This document shows positions 2,699-8,063 of a stretch of 11,227 nt of DNA, one piece after another. How positions within the stretch are numbered: position 1 is the first letter of the stretch; each line of letters opens with the position of its first letter. Below the pieces are notes generated by a model. The model was not told where the DNA came from. It saw only the letters and a list, made by a program, of their open reading frames with translations, and made no database searches. Both the position numbers and the translations under genes were made by a program. This DNA comes from Candidatus Pacearchaeota archaeon (GTDB lineage Archaea; Nanoarchaeota; Nanoarchaeia; Pacearchaeales; GW2011-AR1), in NCBI GenBank assembly GCA_002686195.1, contig NZAS01000064.1, positions 10,762 through 21,988 on the forward strand, given 5' to 3'.

Positions 2699-3099
2699 TC
2701 TATTCGTTTCTTCCCAATATTATATTTTGTTTCCAAAATCCATTCATCTTTTTCTTTAAAACTTAACACCTTTATTTGTGATAATGGTGCTTTAGGTTCA
2801 TCCATACCGATAATTTCTATCAAGTCCCAATCAGACAAAAGCCCTGCAATAGTATTCCGACGTTCAATATCATTTTGAGATATGTTAGTAGGTTTACCAT
2901 CTAACGCAAATAGTTCTTTAAAATGAACAATGAAATAACGTCCTTGTTTATGTAGGATGTGGCACGACTGATATAGTTTTCTCTCTTTCCTTGAGGCAAC
3001 GCCTATACGAGATAAAGTTTCACGGACTTTGAGGAAATCATCAGGATCTTTGAGTCGGACCTCCAGCATTAAGCCAGGATCCCAATCAAGTTTTTCCAT
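2695..3099 (-). CDS. regA: RegA translational repressor
   Basis: Close relative of T4 RegA, the mRNA-binding protein that represses translation of early phage genes, including the sliding clamp and clamp-loader genes, by covering their ribosome-binding regions. The segment from LMLEVRLKDPDDFLKVRETL through LYQSCHILHKQGRYFIVHFKEL and on to LLSDWDLIEI follows T4 RegA almost position by position (T4 has LYQSCHILQKKG, YIVHFKEM and LLEDWGLIEI). I chose the ATG at 3099, giving 134 residues, because AGGTGG lies just upstream; an in-frame GTG at 3108 would add three residues. It overlaps the end of gp62 by 14 bp and the next gene by 4 bp, and sits directly after gp62 as in T4. Confidence 0.95.
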   Translation of the reverse strand: MEKLDWDPGLMLEVRLKDPDDFLKVRETLSRIGVASRKERKLYQSCHILHKQGRYFIVHFKELFALDGKPTNISQNDIERRNTIAGLLSDWDLIEIIGMDEPKAPLSQIKVLSFKEKDEWILETKYNIGKKRIE

Positions 3100-3532
3100 G
3101 TTTTCCACCTCGACTTATTATAGTTTTTATTTCTTCAAGTTGGTCATCGTTTAGAATTTCAAGGGCCTGTTTGGCCTTCTCATTACTATAACCATAGTAT
3201 TCTTTTACATATTCAAGATTCTTAATCTTGCTAGACCTGAGCCATTTACTGAATCTCTTTTTTGGTCTTATACTATTTAGAAAAAATTGGAACTGTAACT
3301 TCTTGTCGAGGTGGTGCATCTTATTCATTTCGTTTGCATATAACAAACACTCTGGAAATGAACTTAATGCTTTGTTCACAATATATGTTGGATATTTCTT
3401 TTCCCAGAACGCGTCATCGCCTGCCATAAGGTCTTCCTTCTTATGGTTGATGGCATTAAGGTAATGTTTAAGAGCGTAGGGGTCCTCTTGAGGACCATCT
3501 CTTTTCTTGTCTTGCTTTTTTAATGCGTTCAC
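3086..3532 (-). CDS. 62: Clamp loader small subunit gp62
   Basis: 148-residue small subunit that joins gp44 to load the gp45 clamp at primer-template junctions. The diagnostic segment is YIVNKALSSFPECLLYANEMN (residues ~50-70), matching T4 gp62 (MVENALSQFPECMPAVYAMN), followed by RPKKRFSKWLR where T4 has PRGKRYGKWAK. It is shorter than T4 gp62 (187 residues), as in marine T4-like phages. The start is probably the GTG at 3532: the next in-frame ATG, at residue 36, would remove the conserved HYLNAINHKK segment. No strong Shine-Dalgarno precedes the GTG. A 16-bp near-perfect palindrome lies at codons ~13-18 (3481-3496). Unlike T4, gp44 and gp62 are here separated by about 1.9 kb of accessory genes. 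Confidence 0.9.
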   Translation of the reverse strand: MNALKKQDKKRDGPQEDPYALKHYLNAINHKKEDLMAGDDAFWEKKYPTYIVNKALSSFPECLLYANEMNKMHHLDKKLQFQFFLNSIRPKKRFSKWLRSSKIKNLEYVKEYYGYSNEKAKQALEILNDDQLEEIKTIISRGGKHGKT

Positions 3533-3623
3533 TTTGTTTTCTTCTATTCTCTGGGTCGGACCAATACTCTGTCCTCTTGTCTCTCATTTTGGTTAGAGTT
3601 TCTTCACTGTGCTTTCTATTCAA
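3468..3623 (-). pseudogene. Short NUMOD3-like basic ORF, possible homing endonuclease remnant
   Basis: A 51-codon reading frame, if started at TTG 3623, between the CmoA-like gene and gp62, overlapping gp62 in another frame by 65 bp. Its start LNRKHSEETLTKMRDK resembles NUMOD3, the small DNA-binding repeat with 'KHSEET' found in the tails of GIY-YIG and HNH homing endonucleases. The following WSDPENRRKQSERIKKARQ looks like a second, diverged copy. There is no nuclease catalytic domain. An ATG at 3587 would give a still shorter product. It could be a decayed homing endonuclease tail left by insertion of the neighbouring cargo, a real small DNA-binding protein, or simply coincidence. No good ribosome-binding site was seen. 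Confidence 0.4.
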
Positions 3624-3630
3624 GTTTTCA

Positions 3631-4341
3631 TTATTTTGTCTCCGTTGAAAATTTACCTTCTGCTTCCTTGATACAAAGCAAAGCAACAAAATTAAAGTTT
3701 TGCCAAAATGGTTGGACAACTTCAAATCCAGCAGTCCTACACATTCCAACTAATTCATCCATAGTCAGAGGTTTCATCATATGTCGTAGATTCTGTTCCT
3801 TATCTAACAACTCCTCTGCACTATAAAACTGGCGTTTGTAATCGTAATAGCAAAACTGCATCATTTCCTGTAACTGTGCGTGCTCACTATAAATCTTTTC
3901 CGCACATATAAACGCCCCACCCTTTACAAGTGATTCATAGACACGTTGAATAATAACCTGTCTATTTCTTTTCGGCATAAACTGTAATGAAAATATTGAG
4001 GTGGTAAAACAGTTATTCACTGCTCCTGTTACCCATTCAAAAGACCTAACATCTTGTTTATAAAACTTCAGATTCTTTTCATCTTTCAAGTCAGGAAAGA
4101 AATCTTCTTCAATCTCAATACCTCTATACGCTACTTTATCCGCAAAGCAATCATTCTGTGTTTTCATATGTTTCAACAGTTTTCCTGTAGAACACCCAAT
4201 GTCAACTACAGTACAACCATCTTCAACAAAGTATTCTGAAAACTTTAGAACATCTTCCCAAAGGTCAGAATACCCACGGACAGACTGGTCGATATGAGAA
4301 TCGAACCCTTCTTCCGCTTGTGCAAATGTAAATTTAGTCAT
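3631..4341 (-). CDS. CmoA-like carboxy-SAM synthase / class I SAM enzyme
   Basis: A 236-residue class I SAM-binding protein. Comparison with remembered E. coli CmoA (247 residues), which converts SAM plus prephenate to carboxy-SAM for tRNA wobble uridine modification, is convincing over most of the length: IDQSVRGYSDL (17-27) versus IQRSVPGYSNI; motif I VVDIGCSTG (45-53) versus VYDLGCSLG; SLQFMPKRNRQ (118-128) versus TLQFLEPSERQ; KGGAFICAEK (140-149) versus PGGALVLSEK; DYKR (167-170) versus DFKR; FWQNFNF (212-218) versus WFQCFNF. One point is odd: ungapped alignment places Glu182 opposite CmoA Arg199, the carboxylate-binding residue, and Arg186 opposite Glu203. It starts inside the end of the DNA methyltransferase gene (8-bp overlap, AAGG upstream), so the two are probably co-translated. 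CxSAM synthesis is inferred; a plain methyltransferase is the alternative. Confidence 0.8.
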   Translation of the reverse strand: MTKFTFAQAEEGFDSHIDQSVRGYSDLWEDVLKFSEYFVEDGCTVVDIGCSTGKLLKHMKTQNDCFADKVAYRGIEIEEDFFPDLKDEKNLKFYKQDVRSFEWVTGAVNNCFTTSIFSLQFMPKRNRQVIIQRVYESLVKGGAFICAEKIYSEHAQLQEMMQFCYYDYKRQFYSAEELLDKEQNLRHMMKPLTMDELVGMCRTAGFEVVQPFWQNFNFVALLCIKEAEGKFSTETK

Positions 4342-5449
4342 AATCTAATACCTTATTATACACGGATGTAGCCAAACTTGCAATACATTTCGGAGCGACC
4401 ATCCGTCCAATTCGCTCCGCCTTTTGATTAAATGTACCTTCCAAAATAAAATCATCTGGAAGACCTTGAACTCTTTTTAGTTCTTTGATAGTTAGTTTTC
4501 TATCTAACTCATAATGTATCACACCAGACAAACCCTTCTGCTGTCCTTGCTGTGTGATAGTGGGACTAGGTAAATTGGGACACGGACGTATCAAATTAAA
4601 CAAACTTTGATTAGGATGATACTCCGAACCTTTTACTTGTCTCTCTGGATTCTTTGGCAGTTTAGGTATCCAGTCTTTTAGAAAACCTTTTGCAACTGCC
4701 TCATACAATTCTTTTTCTTCCTCGGGATCATTCTCTATATTATGTATCGCTTCATATAATGAAACGTGTTCTTTATATGTTGGTGTCGGATAAACACTTT
4801 CAAGAGTCATAAAGTTTAGAGAAGTCTTTGCCAAGATATCATTTCTTATTGCAACAAAGAAACATCTTTCCCGAGCCTGGGGTGTCCCATAGTCGGCCGC
4901 ATTGAGTGACTTACCCACTGCCGTATAACCAATGTCTTGAAACGCATTGATGATGCGATTGAAGTATTCCTTTGCCTTACCAAACATTATTGACTTTACA
5001 TTCTCGCCAATAATAACCTTAGGTTGTATATCGTTAGCAACACGGATAAACTCAAAGAACAAATCCTCAACGCCTTTGACCTTTCCCTTGTCACTATAAT
5101 TCTTTTCTTTACCCCATCCCTTCTCTCTACGGCCTGCGATACTAAACGCCGAGCAGGGTGGAGAACCATCTAATATATCCAATTCACCCCTTTCTAGTGA
5201 AGTCATATCCAACAGGTCACCACCAGTCAAATAATTAATGTCTCCATCAACAAATGGTGTGCCTGGATAGTTTGCCAAATAAGTTTTTTGAGCAGACTCC
5301 ACAAACTCGTTTACACATAGAATGTCTCCACCTGCAAGTTTATAACCTGTAGACGAACCACCGCCACCAGCAAAGGTGGAGATAACTGTAAACAGTTTTC
5401 TCTCTGCTGATTGCTTTACATCATTCAATGTGTATGGGTCATATTTCAC
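4334..5449 (-). CDS. DNA cytosine-C5 methyltransferase with altered cofactor pocket
   Basis: A 371-residue C5-cytosine DNA methyltransferase with the family motifs in order: motif I FAGGGGSSTG (26-35); motif IV GSPPCSAFS (95-103) with catalytic Cys99; motif VI GENV (148-151); motif VIII QARER (191-195); a variable target-recognition region at ~205-310; LTIKELKRVQGLPDDF (319-334) leading into motif X; and motif X RIGRMVAP (346-353). Two positions depart from the family norm: Ser100 where M.HhaI has Gln82, and Arg349 (codon CGG, 4403-4405) where nearly all members have Asn (GNxV; Asn304 of M.HhaI). Both line the pocket around the group being transferred. The start overlaps the gp44 stop by 4 bp and the end overlaps the CmoA-like gene by 8 bp. 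No restriction endonuclease is visible. The target sequence cannot be read from the protein. Transfer of a carboxymethyl group is inferred. Confidence 0.93.
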   Translation of the reverse strand: MKYDPYTLNDVKQSAERKLFTVISTFAGGGGSSTGYKLAGGDILCVNEFVESAQKTYLANYPGTPFVDGDINYLTGGDLLDMTSLERGELDILDGSPPCSAFSIAGRREKGWGKEKNYSDKGKVKGVEDLFFEFIRVANDIQPKVIIGENVKSIMFGKAKEYFNRIINAFQDIGYTAVGKSLNAADYGTPQARERCFFVAIRNDILAKTSLNFMTLESVYPTPTYKEHVSLYEAIHNIENDPEEEKELYEAVAKGFLKDWIPKLPKNPERQVKGSEYHPNQSLFNLIRPCPNLPSPTITQQGQQKGLSGVIHYELDRKLTIKELKRVQGLPDDFILEGTFNQKAERIGRMVAPKCIASLATSVYNKVLDYD

Positions 5450-6387
5450 TTGAATTCACATTGACTCATTATTTCTGTAAGACACGCCAGCATATTTACT
5501 TCCGGGTCAGCAACAAAAGCTGAATAATATTGATACTTGCCTATCACCAACACTGCTGCTGGAATACTTGCAGGTTTCATATACTGATATAATGTTTCAT
5601 ATATTCTACGGAATACCTTTACTGGGTCATTGTCTATATTATCCACAACCCATTTGCGAACTTTACTAAATTCTTTACCTTTCAAATGACCCATCAGTTC
5701 CTTCATATTGACTTCTGCAATATTTACAAGGATACCCGAATCAATATTACCACTTACACTATACCGTTGCAGTTCATTCAATACTCTCCTAAAATCAGGA
5801 AAGTGTTTCATTATCAATTCTGCAACGACTTCTTCCTCAAAGCCAATACCTTCTTCTTTTAGAATCGACTCAACGCGATTCATAAACTGAGATGCTAATA
5901 TAGCCTTGTTGCCATTTATCTTGAATTCTATAACTGAACATCTGGAGTGCAGAGGTTCAATAATACGATTACGATAATTACAAGTGAAAATAAAACGACA
6001 ATTTTTATGAAACTCCTCAATGAACCCACGGAGTGCAGGTTGCGTTGACTGAGGATTTAGATAATCAGCTTCATCTAAAATAACAACCTTATGTCCAGCA
6101 TTCTGTAATGATACTGTCGAGGCAAAAGTTTTTATTTTATTTCTGAGAACATCAATACCGGATTCTTCCGAACCGTTGATAATGATATAATCACAACCCA
6201 GTTCTTCACAAAGAGCTCGGGCAACTGTGGTCTTACCAACACCAGATCCGCCAGCCAAAAGTAGATTAGGAATCTCTTTTCGGCCGACGAATTCTAGAAA
6301 TGTATTTTTTATACCTTCTGGTAAAACGCAATCAGTTATCGTTTTTGGACGATACTTTTCTACGAACAGGAAACTCTCTTTCATCAT
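5446..6387 (-). CDS. 44: Clamp loader large subunit gp44 (AAA+ ATPase)
   Basis: AAA+ ATPase subunit of the T4-type clamp loader; four gp44 with one gp62 open and close the gp45 ring. From the chosen start (MMKESFLFVEKYRP) it has 313 residues (T4: 319). The N-terminal VEKYRPKT is typical of clamp loaders. Walker A is GGSGVGKT (46-53), Walker B VVILDEAD (101-108), and the arginine-finger motif is HSRC (147-150). Tandem ATGs lie at 6387 and 6384 with TAGGT just upstream; an in-frame GTG at 6405 would add six residues. The start lies 56 bp inside the preceding zinc-ribbon gene, and the stop overlaps the methyltransferase start by 4 bp. Confidence 0.96.
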   Translation of the reverse strand: MMKESFLFVEKYRPKTITDCVLPEGIKNTFLEFVGRKEIPNLLLAGGSGVGKTTVARALCEELGCDYIIINGSEESGIDVLRNKIKTFASTVSLQNAGHKVVILDEADYLNPQSTQPALRGFIEEFHKNCRFIFTCNYRNRIIEPLHSRCSVIEFKINGNKAILASQFMNRVESILKEEGIGFEEEVVAELIMKHFPDFRRVLNELQRYSVSGNIDSGILVNIAEVNMKELMGHLKGKEFSKVRKWVVDNIDNDPVKVFRRIYETLYQYMKPASIPAAVLVIGKYQYYSAFVADPEVNMLACLTEIMSQCEFK

Positions 6388-6532
6388 CAAACCTACTTTT
6401 CTCACCGCACCAAGGACAGAACCATTTTCTGTCCAGTAGTAAAAATTCTTCTACTGCTATGGACCACCAACCACTACACTTGTGACACATAAAATGATAT
6501 AGTACTTCAGTACTAATCCGTGGGTTGCTCAA
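6332..6532 (-). CDS. Small zinc-ribbon protein between gp45 and gp44
   Basis: A short protein with two CxxC knuckles, CHKC (16-19) and CPWC (39-42), spaced as in a treble-clef or zinc-ribbon fold, separated by an aromatic segment SGWWSIAVEEF. The C-terminal tail is charged. From its TTG at 6532 it has 66 residues and overlaps the gp45 stop by 20 bp; the first ATG, at 6490, would give 52 residues and still keep all four cysteines. Neither start has a convincing Shine-Dalgarno. It overlaps gp44 by 56 bp in another frame. Its place between clamp and clamp-loader genes hints at a role in replication or transcription (in T4 the RNA-polymerase-binding protein RpbA is encoded near gp45), but there is no sequence evidence for a specific function. 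Confidence 0.65.
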   Translation of the reverse strand: MSNPRISTEVLYHFMCHKCSGWWSIAVEEFLLLDRKWFCPWCGEKSRFDDEREFPVRRKVSSKNDN

Positions 6533-7151
6533 GAGCGATCCAGTAAGTTACCTTACTACCCTTCCAACAAGATACCAGGGCCTGGGATGATACAGAAACA
6601 TCATACTTATCAGGAATCATTTTGAGATTATCAGCCTTGAAATTGAACTCATAATCTTGACCATTATCATCCAACGTAACATCATAATTGTTCGATGTTG
6701 AATTTTTCAGATCGGTAACTGTAATCTTACCTCGGGTCATAACAACATCTGGCAACTGCATCACTGTGGATGCTTTCAATACGTTAGCCAATGTTTCTTG
6801 TGAAACTTCAAAATGTACATCTGTATCTGGTGCATTGAATGTATCTGGTGGGGAAATCAGAATAGATGGATCCGAATAGAAATAACGAATATTTGATCCA
6901 CCACCATTGACAGTCAAATATTTTTCTTCCATTTTCAAATTCGGGTCTTTCACCAAAGTCAACACACCAAGAAATTCTGTTAGATCGTAAATACCGAATT
7001 CCTGTGTGAAGTCCTCTGAAACATCTGCCTCTGCCAAAATATTTTTCATGGTAGACATTGTTCGTACCTGGCAACCTTCTTTGATTAAAATATTTTGATT
7101 GATATTTGAAAAGTTCTTTAGAACTTCAATCGTATCATTACTTAACTTCAT
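6513..7151 (-). CDS. 45: Sliding clamp gp45
   Basis: DNA polymerase processivity clamp of the T4 gp45 type, a trimeric ring that holds gp43 on DNA and in T4 also activates late transcription. The 212-residue product (T4: 228) begins MKLSNDTIEVLKNFSNIN, a typical gp45 N terminus, with NILIKEGCQVRTMS (22-35), FGIYDLTEFLGVL (53-65) and the late segment YDVSVSSQALVSCW (~182-195). The ATG at 7151 is chosen because AGGAG lies 7 nt upstream; an upstream in-frame start would add six residues. It overlaps the DUF3310-like gene by 14 bp. Confidence 0.93.
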   Translation of the reverse strand: MKLSNDTIEVLKNFSNINQNILIKEGCQVRTMSTMKNILAEADVSEDFTQEFGIYDLTEFLGVLTLVKDPNLKMEEKYLTVNGGGSNIRYFYSDPSILISPPDTFNAPDTDVHFEVSQETLANVLKASTVMQLPDVVMTRGKITVTDLKNSTSNNYDVTLDDNGQDYEFNFKADNLKMIPDKYDVSVSSQALVSCWKGSKVTYWIALEQPTD

Positions 7152-7446
7152 CTTCACTCTCCTGCTCATGTATGTGGAGCATCATAATACCATAATGTAA
7201 AATTTTCATAAGGTCATCTTTATTCTTGCCGCCCTTCCGGCCATATCGTTGAGCATACTTCAAAATGTTGCCCATACAAAATCCCGAACCATGACCACAT
7301 TCTTCAATGAACTCCATGGCTTGAAATCTGTTTTTTGAATAATGTAATTGGTAGGTGTTATCAATATACGTTCTCAATTCTTTTAGTGATTTGTTTTCAC
7401 TAAACTTGTAAATATTTTCTGGAATCTTTGTCACTTTCATATTCAT
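7138..7446 (-). CDS. DUF3310 (SaV-like) protein
   Basis: A 102-residue protein (from ATG 7446) whose core LHYSKNRFQAMEFIEECG (34-51), followed by FCMGNILKYAQRYGRKGG and DDLMKILHYGIMML, fits the DUF3310 family: 'HY....iE.idfIe..g..F..GN.iKY..R.grK....Dl.Ka..Y'. Such proteins are widespread in phages and are sometimes annotated as nucleotide kinase-like, without solid biochemical proof. The start is ambiguous: AAGGTG lies 8 nt before ATG 7446, but a strong promoter (7448-7476) would begin transcription near 7441, favouring ATG 7440 (MKVTKIPEN) as a leaderless start. A TTG at 7476 is part of the promoter's -35 box and unlikely to be used. The gene precedes gp45 and overlaps it by 14 bp, so its promoter probably also feeds the clamp and loader genes. 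Confidence 0.75.
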   Translation of the reverse strand: MNMKVTKIPENIYKFSENKSLKELRTYIDNTYQLHYSKNRFQAMEFIEECGHGSGFCMGNILKYAQRYGRKGGKNKDDLMKILHYGIMMLHIHEQESEDEVK

Positions 7447-7447
7447 A

Positions 7448-7476
7448 ATAATAACACCTTTTTCAGTGATTGTCAA
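7448..7476 (-). promoter_or_regulatory. Sigma70-like extended -10 promoter upstream of DUF3310/gp45
   Basis: Minus-strand TTGACA (7476-7471), a 17-nt spacer ending in TGT, then TATTAT (7453-7448), giving an extended -10 (TGnTATTAT). The spacer end and -10 are shared with the hsp20 promoter (both read TGTTATTATTAT). It would drive DUF3310, gp45, the zinc-ribbon gene and gp44. The predicted start is near 7441, at the first codons of the DUF3310-like gene. Confidence 0.7.
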
Positions 7477-7592
7477 GGGGAAATGAGGGCAGGATAGATG
7501 TGTCAGTGGCGGCTGACAGAGCTTTCTTCAAGGGCCTCTCCAAGCATCAGGTGAAGGCTCCCAGTTACCTGAGAGCCGCACCCCCATAACCT
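7477..7592 (-). ncRNA. GC-rich, hairpin-forming intergenic RNA element (candidate)
   Basis: This 116-bp gap between hsp20 and the DUF3310-like promoter has no ORF and is about 57% G+C by my count, in otherwise AT-rich DNA. Read as hsp20-proximal RNA it holds a 9-bp hairpin with one wobble and a GUAA (GNRA) tetraloop at 7577-7556, and a 6-bp stem with a 6-nt loop at 7518-7501. Two competing pairings are possible: UCAGGU (7572-7567) with ACCUGA (7552-7547), and GUGCGGCU (7581-7574) with AGCCGCCAC (7514-7506) with one bulge. No U-run follows either hairpin, so it is not a standard intrinsic terminator. It may be a 3'-end or processing structure, a small RNA, or a cis-regulator. I recognise no known RNA family. 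Confidence 0.5.
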
Positions 7593-8048
7593 CTAACTAA
7601 TTTTGATGAGTTTTGGTTTCTTCTCATCTGGTACAATACGTTCAATCTCAACGTATAGCATACCATCTTCCATCTTCGCACGATTCACTACTGCATCATC
7701 TGCCATGGACCAAGTCCTGGAGAATTTACGTTGTGAGATACCACGATGAACCAGAACAGCCGAGTTATTGTCATTCGACATTTCATCCTTATCATTATCT
7801 TTCGTCGCAACTACCAGTTTTCCTTCGACAGTCTTGATTTCGATATCCTTCTTGTCGTATCCTGCCAACGCAACTTCGACCTGCCATTTGTTTTCGTCTA
7901 ACTTACGAATATTGTAAGGCGGGAAATTGGCAGTTGTATGTAGTTGATAGTGTTCATTCAGTCTGTCAAAAAGACTGTCAAAACCGACAAAGTGTGGGGC
8001 CAGAGTGGCCGTGTCAAAAAGATTTGCTAATGCTTTGCTTGTAACCAT
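7593..8048 (-). CDS. Small heat shock protein Hsp20 (IbpA-like)
   Basis: A 151-residue small heat shock protein. The alpha-crystallin domain spans ~43-138: PPYNIRKLDENKWQVEVALAGYDKKDIEI (43-71), GKLVV (76-80), then HRGISQRKFSRTWSM (101-115) and MEDGMLYVEIER (126-137). The tail carries IKI (148-150), the I-x-I motif used for oligomer assembly. Such ATP-independent holdases keep unfolding proteins soluble; Hsp20 genes are a hallmark of T4-like cyanophages and relatives. The start ATG has a strong AGGAGGT 8 nt upstream. The gene stands alone with its own promoters (8115-8151) and a 5' leader hairpin, suggesting high and separately timed expression. Confidence 0.95.
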   Translation of the reverse strand: MVTSKALANLFDTATLAPHFVGFDSLFDRLNEHYQLHTTANFPPYNIRKLDENKWQVEVALAGYDKKDIEIKTVEGKLVVATKDNDKDEMSNDNNSAVLVHRGISQRKFSRTWSMADDAVVNRAKMEDGMLYVEIERIVPDEKKPKLIKIS

Positions 8049-8056
8049 TTTATGTT

Positions 8057-8063
8057 ACCTCCT
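8057..8063 (-). promoter_or_regulatory. Strong Shine-Dalgarno of hsp20
   Basis: AGGAGGT on the minus strand, 8 nt before the hsp20 ATG, the strongest ribosome-binding site in the window. It fixes the start at 8048. Confidence 0.85.

Follow-up and report, generated by a model that had tools for sequence, protein, structure and literature searches.

A natural pathway for the carboxymethylation of DNA has been described for the Synechococcus phage S-B43, in which CmoA produces carboxy-SAM (Cx-SAM), CmoX uses it to form 5-carboxymethylcytosine (5cxmC), and CmoY, an AMP-forming amide ligase, adds glycine to the carboxymethylated base (Yang et al., Nat Commun, 7 Dec 2025, PMC12783734). The same paper demonstrates that SpCmoA makes Cx-SAM, and that SpCmoX, whose structure with Cx-SAM is available as 8YF3, contacts the carboxymethyl group via Arg350, takes only Cx-SAM in its wild-type form and makes 5cxmC in DNA at GC. 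A basic residue at the motif-X Asn also lets the engineered, CG-preferring C5 transferase M.MpeI N374K accept Cx-SAM (PMC12783734), whereas the locus described here has a natural Arg at this position. The homologous E. coli CmoA (4gek/4iwn) acts in the bacterial tRNA pathway, its product being passed on to tRNA via CmoB (Byrne et al., 2013, PMC3663124).

The window analyzed here, a stretch of 11,227 nucleotides, contains an intact CmoA-CmoX pair, and its phage is predicted by analogy to S-B43, with a probability of about 0.9, to put 5cxmC into its own DNA via Cx-SAM. The CmoA-like protein would make Cx-SAM from SAM and host prephenate, CmoX would move the carboxymethyl group from this cofactor to C5 of cytosines in the phage DNA, and the modified base would likely block host nucleases. 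We infer the catalysis, cofactor choice and product of the window pair from the S-B43 enzymes. An earlier note on this DNA had proposed just such a C5-carboxymethyltransferase fed by its own Cx-SAM synthase, an arrangement which is biochemically established for the S-B43 homologues (PMC12783734) and may be extended to this phage, whose transferase has Arg349; the accompanying statement that no natural system of this kind had been described is outdated by the publication of December 2025. The pathway itself is no longer new, and the window pair adds a member from a branch in which no CmoY is visible.

Gene pair and its setting in the replication operon

The two intact genes overlap and occupy the interval between gp44 and gp62, in a part of a T4-like replication operon encoded on the minus strand. 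The gene for the predicted C5-cytosine (carboxymethyl)transferase, cmoX, starts with GTG and codes for 371 amino acids (4334..5449, minus strand), and the cmoA-like gene for the predicted Cx-SAM synthase starts with ATG and codes for 236 amino acids (3631..4341, minus strand). The stop of cmoX and the start of cmoA share the 8-bp overlap ATGACTAA (4334..4341, minus strand). The two reading frames and their overlap are found exactly where the earlier note had placed them. Beyond what had been noted before, the sequence and the list of open reading frames also reveal a 4-bp overlap, GTGA, between the stop of gp44 and the start of cmoX (5446..5449, minus strand), as well as the T4-like operon itself. 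The flanking genes code for the large clamp-loader subunit gp44 (5446..6405, minus strand; PF00004, PF21328) and the small clamp-loader subunit gp62 (3086..3532, minus strand; PF16790, phrog_225). Besides these two, Pfam or PHROG matches were obtained for a RegA-type translational regulator, a DUF3310 protein and a RimK-like protein, while gp45 and gp43 were assigned by their similarity to annotated genes of Synechococcus phage S-CRM01 and gp46 by annotated matches, its closest cultured relative being that of the marine Methylophilales phage Melnitz (50.8% identity).

The order gp44-cmoX-cmoA-gp62 differs from those of the known systems, which is cmoA-cmoY-cmoX in S-B43 and gp62-three small genes-cmoA-cmoX-one small gene-regA in S-CRM01, although the latter phage resembles the window in carrying CmoA and an Arg-type CmoX near gp44 and gp62. 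The nearest relative of the window is a 42.9-kb viral sequence (G001, identical to locus L006), whose CmoX and CmoA-like proteins are 97-98% identical to those of the window. Its cassette holds three further genes on the minus strand: one for a 302-aa protein before cmoX (16563-17471; ParB-like by eye, no Pfam match), one for a 192-aa orphan in the cmoX-cmoA interval (14857-15435), and one for a type II glutamine synthetase (13149-14150), which overlaps cmoA by 4 bp. As judged from blastn breakpoints, the last of these occupies the place of a 153-bp segment of the cmoA-gp62 interval in the window (3464..3616, minus strand), which has no counterpart in G001. This segment shows a weak NUMOD3-like similarity (E 0.045, below cut-off) and is possibly a remnant of a homing endonuclease.

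Features of CmoX and the CmoA-like protein

The window transferase is a full member of the C5-cytosine DNA methyltransferase family (PF00145, E 4.1e-54), as had been noted earlier, and its best PDB match is SpCmoX itself (8YF3, E 5.5e-118, residues 5-368), the identity to the CmoX of S-B43 amounting to about 52%. CmoX enzymes were recognized by Yang et al. by an SPPC motif together with an Arg at SpCmoX position 350, and the aligned window protein contains both, namely the motif at S96-C99 with the catalytic Cys99 (codon 5153..5155, minus strand; SpCmoX Cys98) and Arg349 in motif X (codon 4403..4405, minus strand), which corresponds to Arg350 of SpCmoX, whose role is known from PMC12783734, and to Asn304 of M.HhaI. 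The Cx-SAM contacts Phe25, Glu47, Phe48 and Asp69 seen in the SpCmoX crystal structure are all retained (Phe26, Glu48, Phe49 and Asp70 of the window protein), and every cofactor residue that was checked is present. Since Phe25, Glu47 and Asp69 also occur in M.HhaI and only Phe48 does not, these contacts alone do not separate a CmoX from a methyltransferase.

The product of the second gene matches NCBIfam TIGR00740 over residues 4-225 (E 2.9e-28) and the E. coli CmoA structures 4iwn and 4gek (E 3.1e-19 and 3.8e-19), which agrees with the CmoA likeness over most of its length reported before. As its TIGR00740 score of 99.2 bits stays under the cut-off of 193.3 bits, it is named CmoA-like here, by which a phage CmoA as described by Yang et al. 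is meant. It matches phrog_4752 (E 1.2e-53) and is a homologue of SpCmoA, the S-B43 enzyme, with 46-48% identity, the tblastn match spanning 94% of the window protein. The marks of a bacterial CmoA of the tRNA pathway, a TIGR00740 score above cut-off and an Arg at E. coli position 199, are both absent, and the protein is only about 27% identical to E. coli CmoA, with which it partly shares the cofactor residues.

These residues, including the carboxylate-holding Arg199, are known from the E. coli structure (Byrne et al., 2013, PMC3663124) and were surveyed in 65 phage rows, which count the window and some duplicate contigs. Tyr39, Asp62, Gly64, Ser66 and Phe137 are conserved in all 65 rows, Asp117 is retained in 59, and Glu164 in 60 with Asp in the other five, whereas Asp89 is replaced by Glu in 64 rows and Asn90 and Asn132 are not conserved. 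Arg199 is replaced by Glu in 64 of the 65 rows, and Glu203, one helical turn further on, by Arg in 59. The window protein has Glu, Glu, Ile and Ile at positions 199, 89, 90 and 132, and its charges are swapped relative to Arg199...Glu203 in the aligned segment Glu182...Arg186 (3784..3798, minus strand; role of Arg199 from PMC3663124). The active SpCmoA differs from the E. coli enzyme at these four positions as well (Glu, Glu, Leu, Leu) and shares the swapped charge pattern, while the CmoAs of phages PaBG, Yoloswag and Afa-NA1 have the charges in the E. coli order. From this alignment we infer that the carboxylate-holding Arg of phage CmoA has probably shifted by one helical turn.

The conserved pairing of the two genes in other phages, which the earlier note had suggested looking for, is borne out by the viral loci in IMG/VR, as 42 of the 43 loci found with CmoA contain a CmoX match of at least 45 bits on the fetched stretch. 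With the window CmoX as query, 45 loci were obtained, among which CmoA is present on the stretch in 24 of the 26 with a motif-X Arg, the two others being contigs of just 6052 and 4151 bases, and in none of the 16 with Met, Leu, Asn or Tyr at this position, three loci being unreadable; the CmoA profile for this count was built from rows of the same data set. Fisher's test gives p 9e-10 for this association, taken over rows which include many close kin and are not phylogenetically independent. Seven phages were inspected out of 67 phage records matching CmoA, and the motif-X Arg recurs in S-B43, S-CRM01, PaBG and Yoloswag. A rule that CmoA always goes along with this Arg is broken by two distant staphylococcal phages, SPbeta-like and vB-SscS-F1, which have a C5-transferase with Gly at the aligned position near CmoA (L328 6675-7673 and L331 7461-8468, respectively) and would therefore escape a search by the SPPC-plus-Arg criterion of Yang et al. 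In Alcaligenes phage Afa-NA1, a CmoA-like protein is present and no PF00145 match was found. In the CmoX-like protein of Erwinia phage Yoloswag (L329 16397-18505), the catalytic Cys of SPPC is immediately preceded by a long insertion that resembles an intein by eye. A scan of bacterial genomes yielded 30 loci, the best of which is 50% identical and lies on a contig labelled as a Chloroflexi MAG.

That the window transferase is an ordinary SAM-dependent enzyme making 5-methylcytosine, with its CmoA neighbour serving tRNA or being incidental, is improbable. It does belong to PF00145, bacterial CmoA is a tRNA-pathway enzyme, and one relative (L019) carries a CmoA 83% identical to that of the window without any CmoX on its 47-kb contig; the Arg349 in place of the motif-X Asn and the cmoA-like gene overlapping cmoX nevertheless render this reading unlikely, since wild-type SpCmoX with such an Arg takes only Cx-SAM (PMC12783734), and the co-occurrence of both genes in 42 of 43 loci as well as the fact that no CmoB-like gene was noticed among those of the window point in the same direction. 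Even less credit is given to a decaying or recently captured, inactive pair: of the genes around the pair in G001, those for the 302-aa and 192-aa proteins and glutamine synthetase are missing from the window, which has the non-homologous 153-bp stretch after cmoA, but both reading frames are undamaged, nearly identical to those of G001 and complete in the CmoX cofactor residues checked. An active pair for DNA carboxymethylation remains the preferred reading. In L019, CmoA lies amid a row of proteins (5822-16228) that look like radical-SAM enzymes by eye, from their CxxCxxC motifs, and may belong to another use of Cx-SAM.

CmoY and other candidate ligases

S-B43 contains CmoY, whereas none was found beside the window pair, where gp44, cmoX and cmoA leave no room for it; the window as a whole gave no match to SpCmoY, and G001 gave none to PF00733. 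The search covered ligases of the Asn_synthase type and, for the window genome, the part represented here. None of the eight loci of the window's branch (L009-L015, L020) shows a CmoY match, two of them (L014, L020) being cut off in that they begin inside cmoX or cmoA, with the gp44 side outside the contig. In five of the others (L010-L013, L015), gp44, cmoX and cmoA follow each other without space for a further gene, and L009, like G001, contains the 302-aa and 192-aa genes in the two intervals. G001 and L009 are close to 100% identical in their cassette proteins and probably represent one virus, and the CmoX rows of L012, L013 and L015 are identical, so that the branch provides few independent cases of a missing CmoY. 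Outside this branch, CmoY is present in 31 of 35 CmoA loci, and the four exceptions are L019 and three contigs starting inside or just before cmoX-cmoA (L031, L032, L036). In the sister branch (L016-L018, L053), CmoY is located between gp44 and cmoX. The complete 178.6-kb genome of S-CRM01, with its CmoA and CmoX, also lacks an Asn_synthase-family protein, and none was found in the SPbeta-like phage.

With no amide ligase of the CmoY type found in the cassettes of the window's branch, it may be supposed, on weaker grounds than the chemistry of the pair, that the carboxylate of 5cxmC remains free there, which makes bare 5cxmC possible, or that an enzyme from another part of the genome caps it. 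In a further reading, which appears rather unlikely, the carboxymethyl group is a mere handle that a ligase unrelated to CmoY would cap, either the type II glutamine synthetase of the sister phages or, in the window, the RimK-like protein of the ATP-grasp type (900-2390). The glutamine synthetase gene overlaps cmoA in G001 and follows cmoA in seven of the 43 CmoA loci, but it is absent from the window, and its product, of 333 residues, aligns with glutamine synthetase 3fky from residue 5 to 325 and looks like an ordinary member of that family, while no cmo gene occurs on the stretch in 73 of the 80 glutamine synthetase loci kept (230 found), on which grounds it was rejected as the missing ligase. 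RimK-type genes lie between regA and gp43 wherever this interval is visible in the window's branch, and there is no room for them in L046, which has CmoY, or in L062, a relative of the CmoY-bearing L053 with its own CmoY side cut off; against a role in capping, seven of nine RimK loci are free of cmo genes on the stretch, four of them spanning the gp44-gp62 gap, and the pelagiphage Mosig has a RimK-like relative and no CmoA, so that this candidate was discarded as well. The G001 copy of the RimK-like protein shows a weak C-terminal match to PF05618 (Zn_protease), below cut-off.

Two kinds of CmoX and the contents of the gp44-gp62 gap

In the CmoX tree, a clade with support 100/96 comprises SpCmoX, the CmoX of S-CRM01 (about 50% identical to that of the window) and the second of the two CmoX of G001; its members share an 8-residue loop insertion and a target-recognition segment of their own. 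The window CmoX lacks this insertion, differs from the S-B43 enzyme in the target-recognition segment and falls outside the clade, among CmoX proteins that are weakly united (94/74; 87/41 with motif X masked). Because of this position and the different segment, its specificity need not be the GC of SpCmoX. G001 and L009 each carry one CmoX of either kind, the second gene following directly after gp43 (6921-8060, minus strand, in G001); the window stops inside gp43, and the position of any second cmoX lies beyond it. The main text of PMC12783734 makes no mention of a paralog, two CmoX, the clamp loader, a glutamine synthetase, S-CRM01 or ATP-grasp enzymes.

The gap between gp44 and gp62 was compared in 26 loci of the window's lineage, selected by a gp44 at least 74% identical to that of G001, with the window included and known duplicate contigs removed, although some may still be one virus from different samples. 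Nine of these loci have CmoX and CmoA in the gap, 13 have a DNA methyltransferase of the SPPY type there, four have neither of the two and none has both. A representative of the SPPY type scores 26.2 bits against PF01555 (N6/N4), just below the cut-off of 26.7. Three more loci passed the gp44 filter only with the gp44 of L064 itself as yardstick and are not among the 26. Of all 132 gp44-gp62 gaps, 41 measure at most 40 bp and 82 exceed 300 bp. Contents and lengths together characterize the gap as an insertion site, which in the window's lineage takes up mostly, but not only, alternative DNA-modification modules.

A different module occupies the same slot in L063-L065, where a C5-transferase of the window's branch with a motif-X Leu is followed by a TET/JBP-type dioxygenase (PF12851) and CmoA is absent; a similar pair is present in the gap of L322. 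Melnitz has a TET-linked C5-methyltransferase of this branch with the same differences from the window, located after gp43 instead of in the gap, and its whole genome gave no CmoA match. In the tree, the Leu-type branch is placed together with the CmoX enzymes on the side of the window (support 97/85, or 97/90 after masking of motif X), which suggests a change from Arg to Leu with replacement of CmoA by TET, this being the likely direction. The Leu-type enzymes were dismissed as proof of such a switch, as a placement outside all CmoX of the group is not rejected by the AU test (p 0.118).

Further gene clusters were observed in the gap. In L016 (8327-10863) and L053 (4575-7105), the CmoY-CmoX-CmoA run is followed, before gp62, by a hexapeptide transferase gene (PF00132) and three more genes without Pfam matches, by eye one GNAT-like and two glycosyltransferase-like. 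A connection of the cmoA-gp62 cluster of L016, L017, L053 and L062 to 5cxmC was abandoned, as the same gap holds the cluster without cmo genes in other loci (e.g., L262, L266). In the gap of L167 (3605-8914), an SPPY DNA methyltransferase is accompanied by an Asp/Asn hydroxylase (PF05118), a protein that resembles a dehydrogenase by eye, a PALP enzyme (PF00291) and two more proteins, an assembly which looks like another DNA hypermodification cluster.

A more speculative scenario, offered only tentatively, would join these observations: in marine T4-like phages, one C5-transferase lineage may switch its chemistry as a module at the gp44-gp62 gap, between carboxymethylation with Arg and CmoA and methylation followed by oxidation with Leu and TET, while the window's branch would have shed the amide ligase and bear bare, negatively charged 5cxmC, with two kinds of CmoX served by one CmoA and directed to two sequence motifs. 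With the predicted activity of the window pair, a DNA modification pathway that has been known only since December 2025 would also operate in another branch of the T4-like phages. The pairs without CmoY, including that in the complete genome of the isolate S-CRM01, offer a direct test of bare 5cxmC, and the gp44-gp62 gap would represent a genome address at which phages exchange alternative DNA-modification modules.
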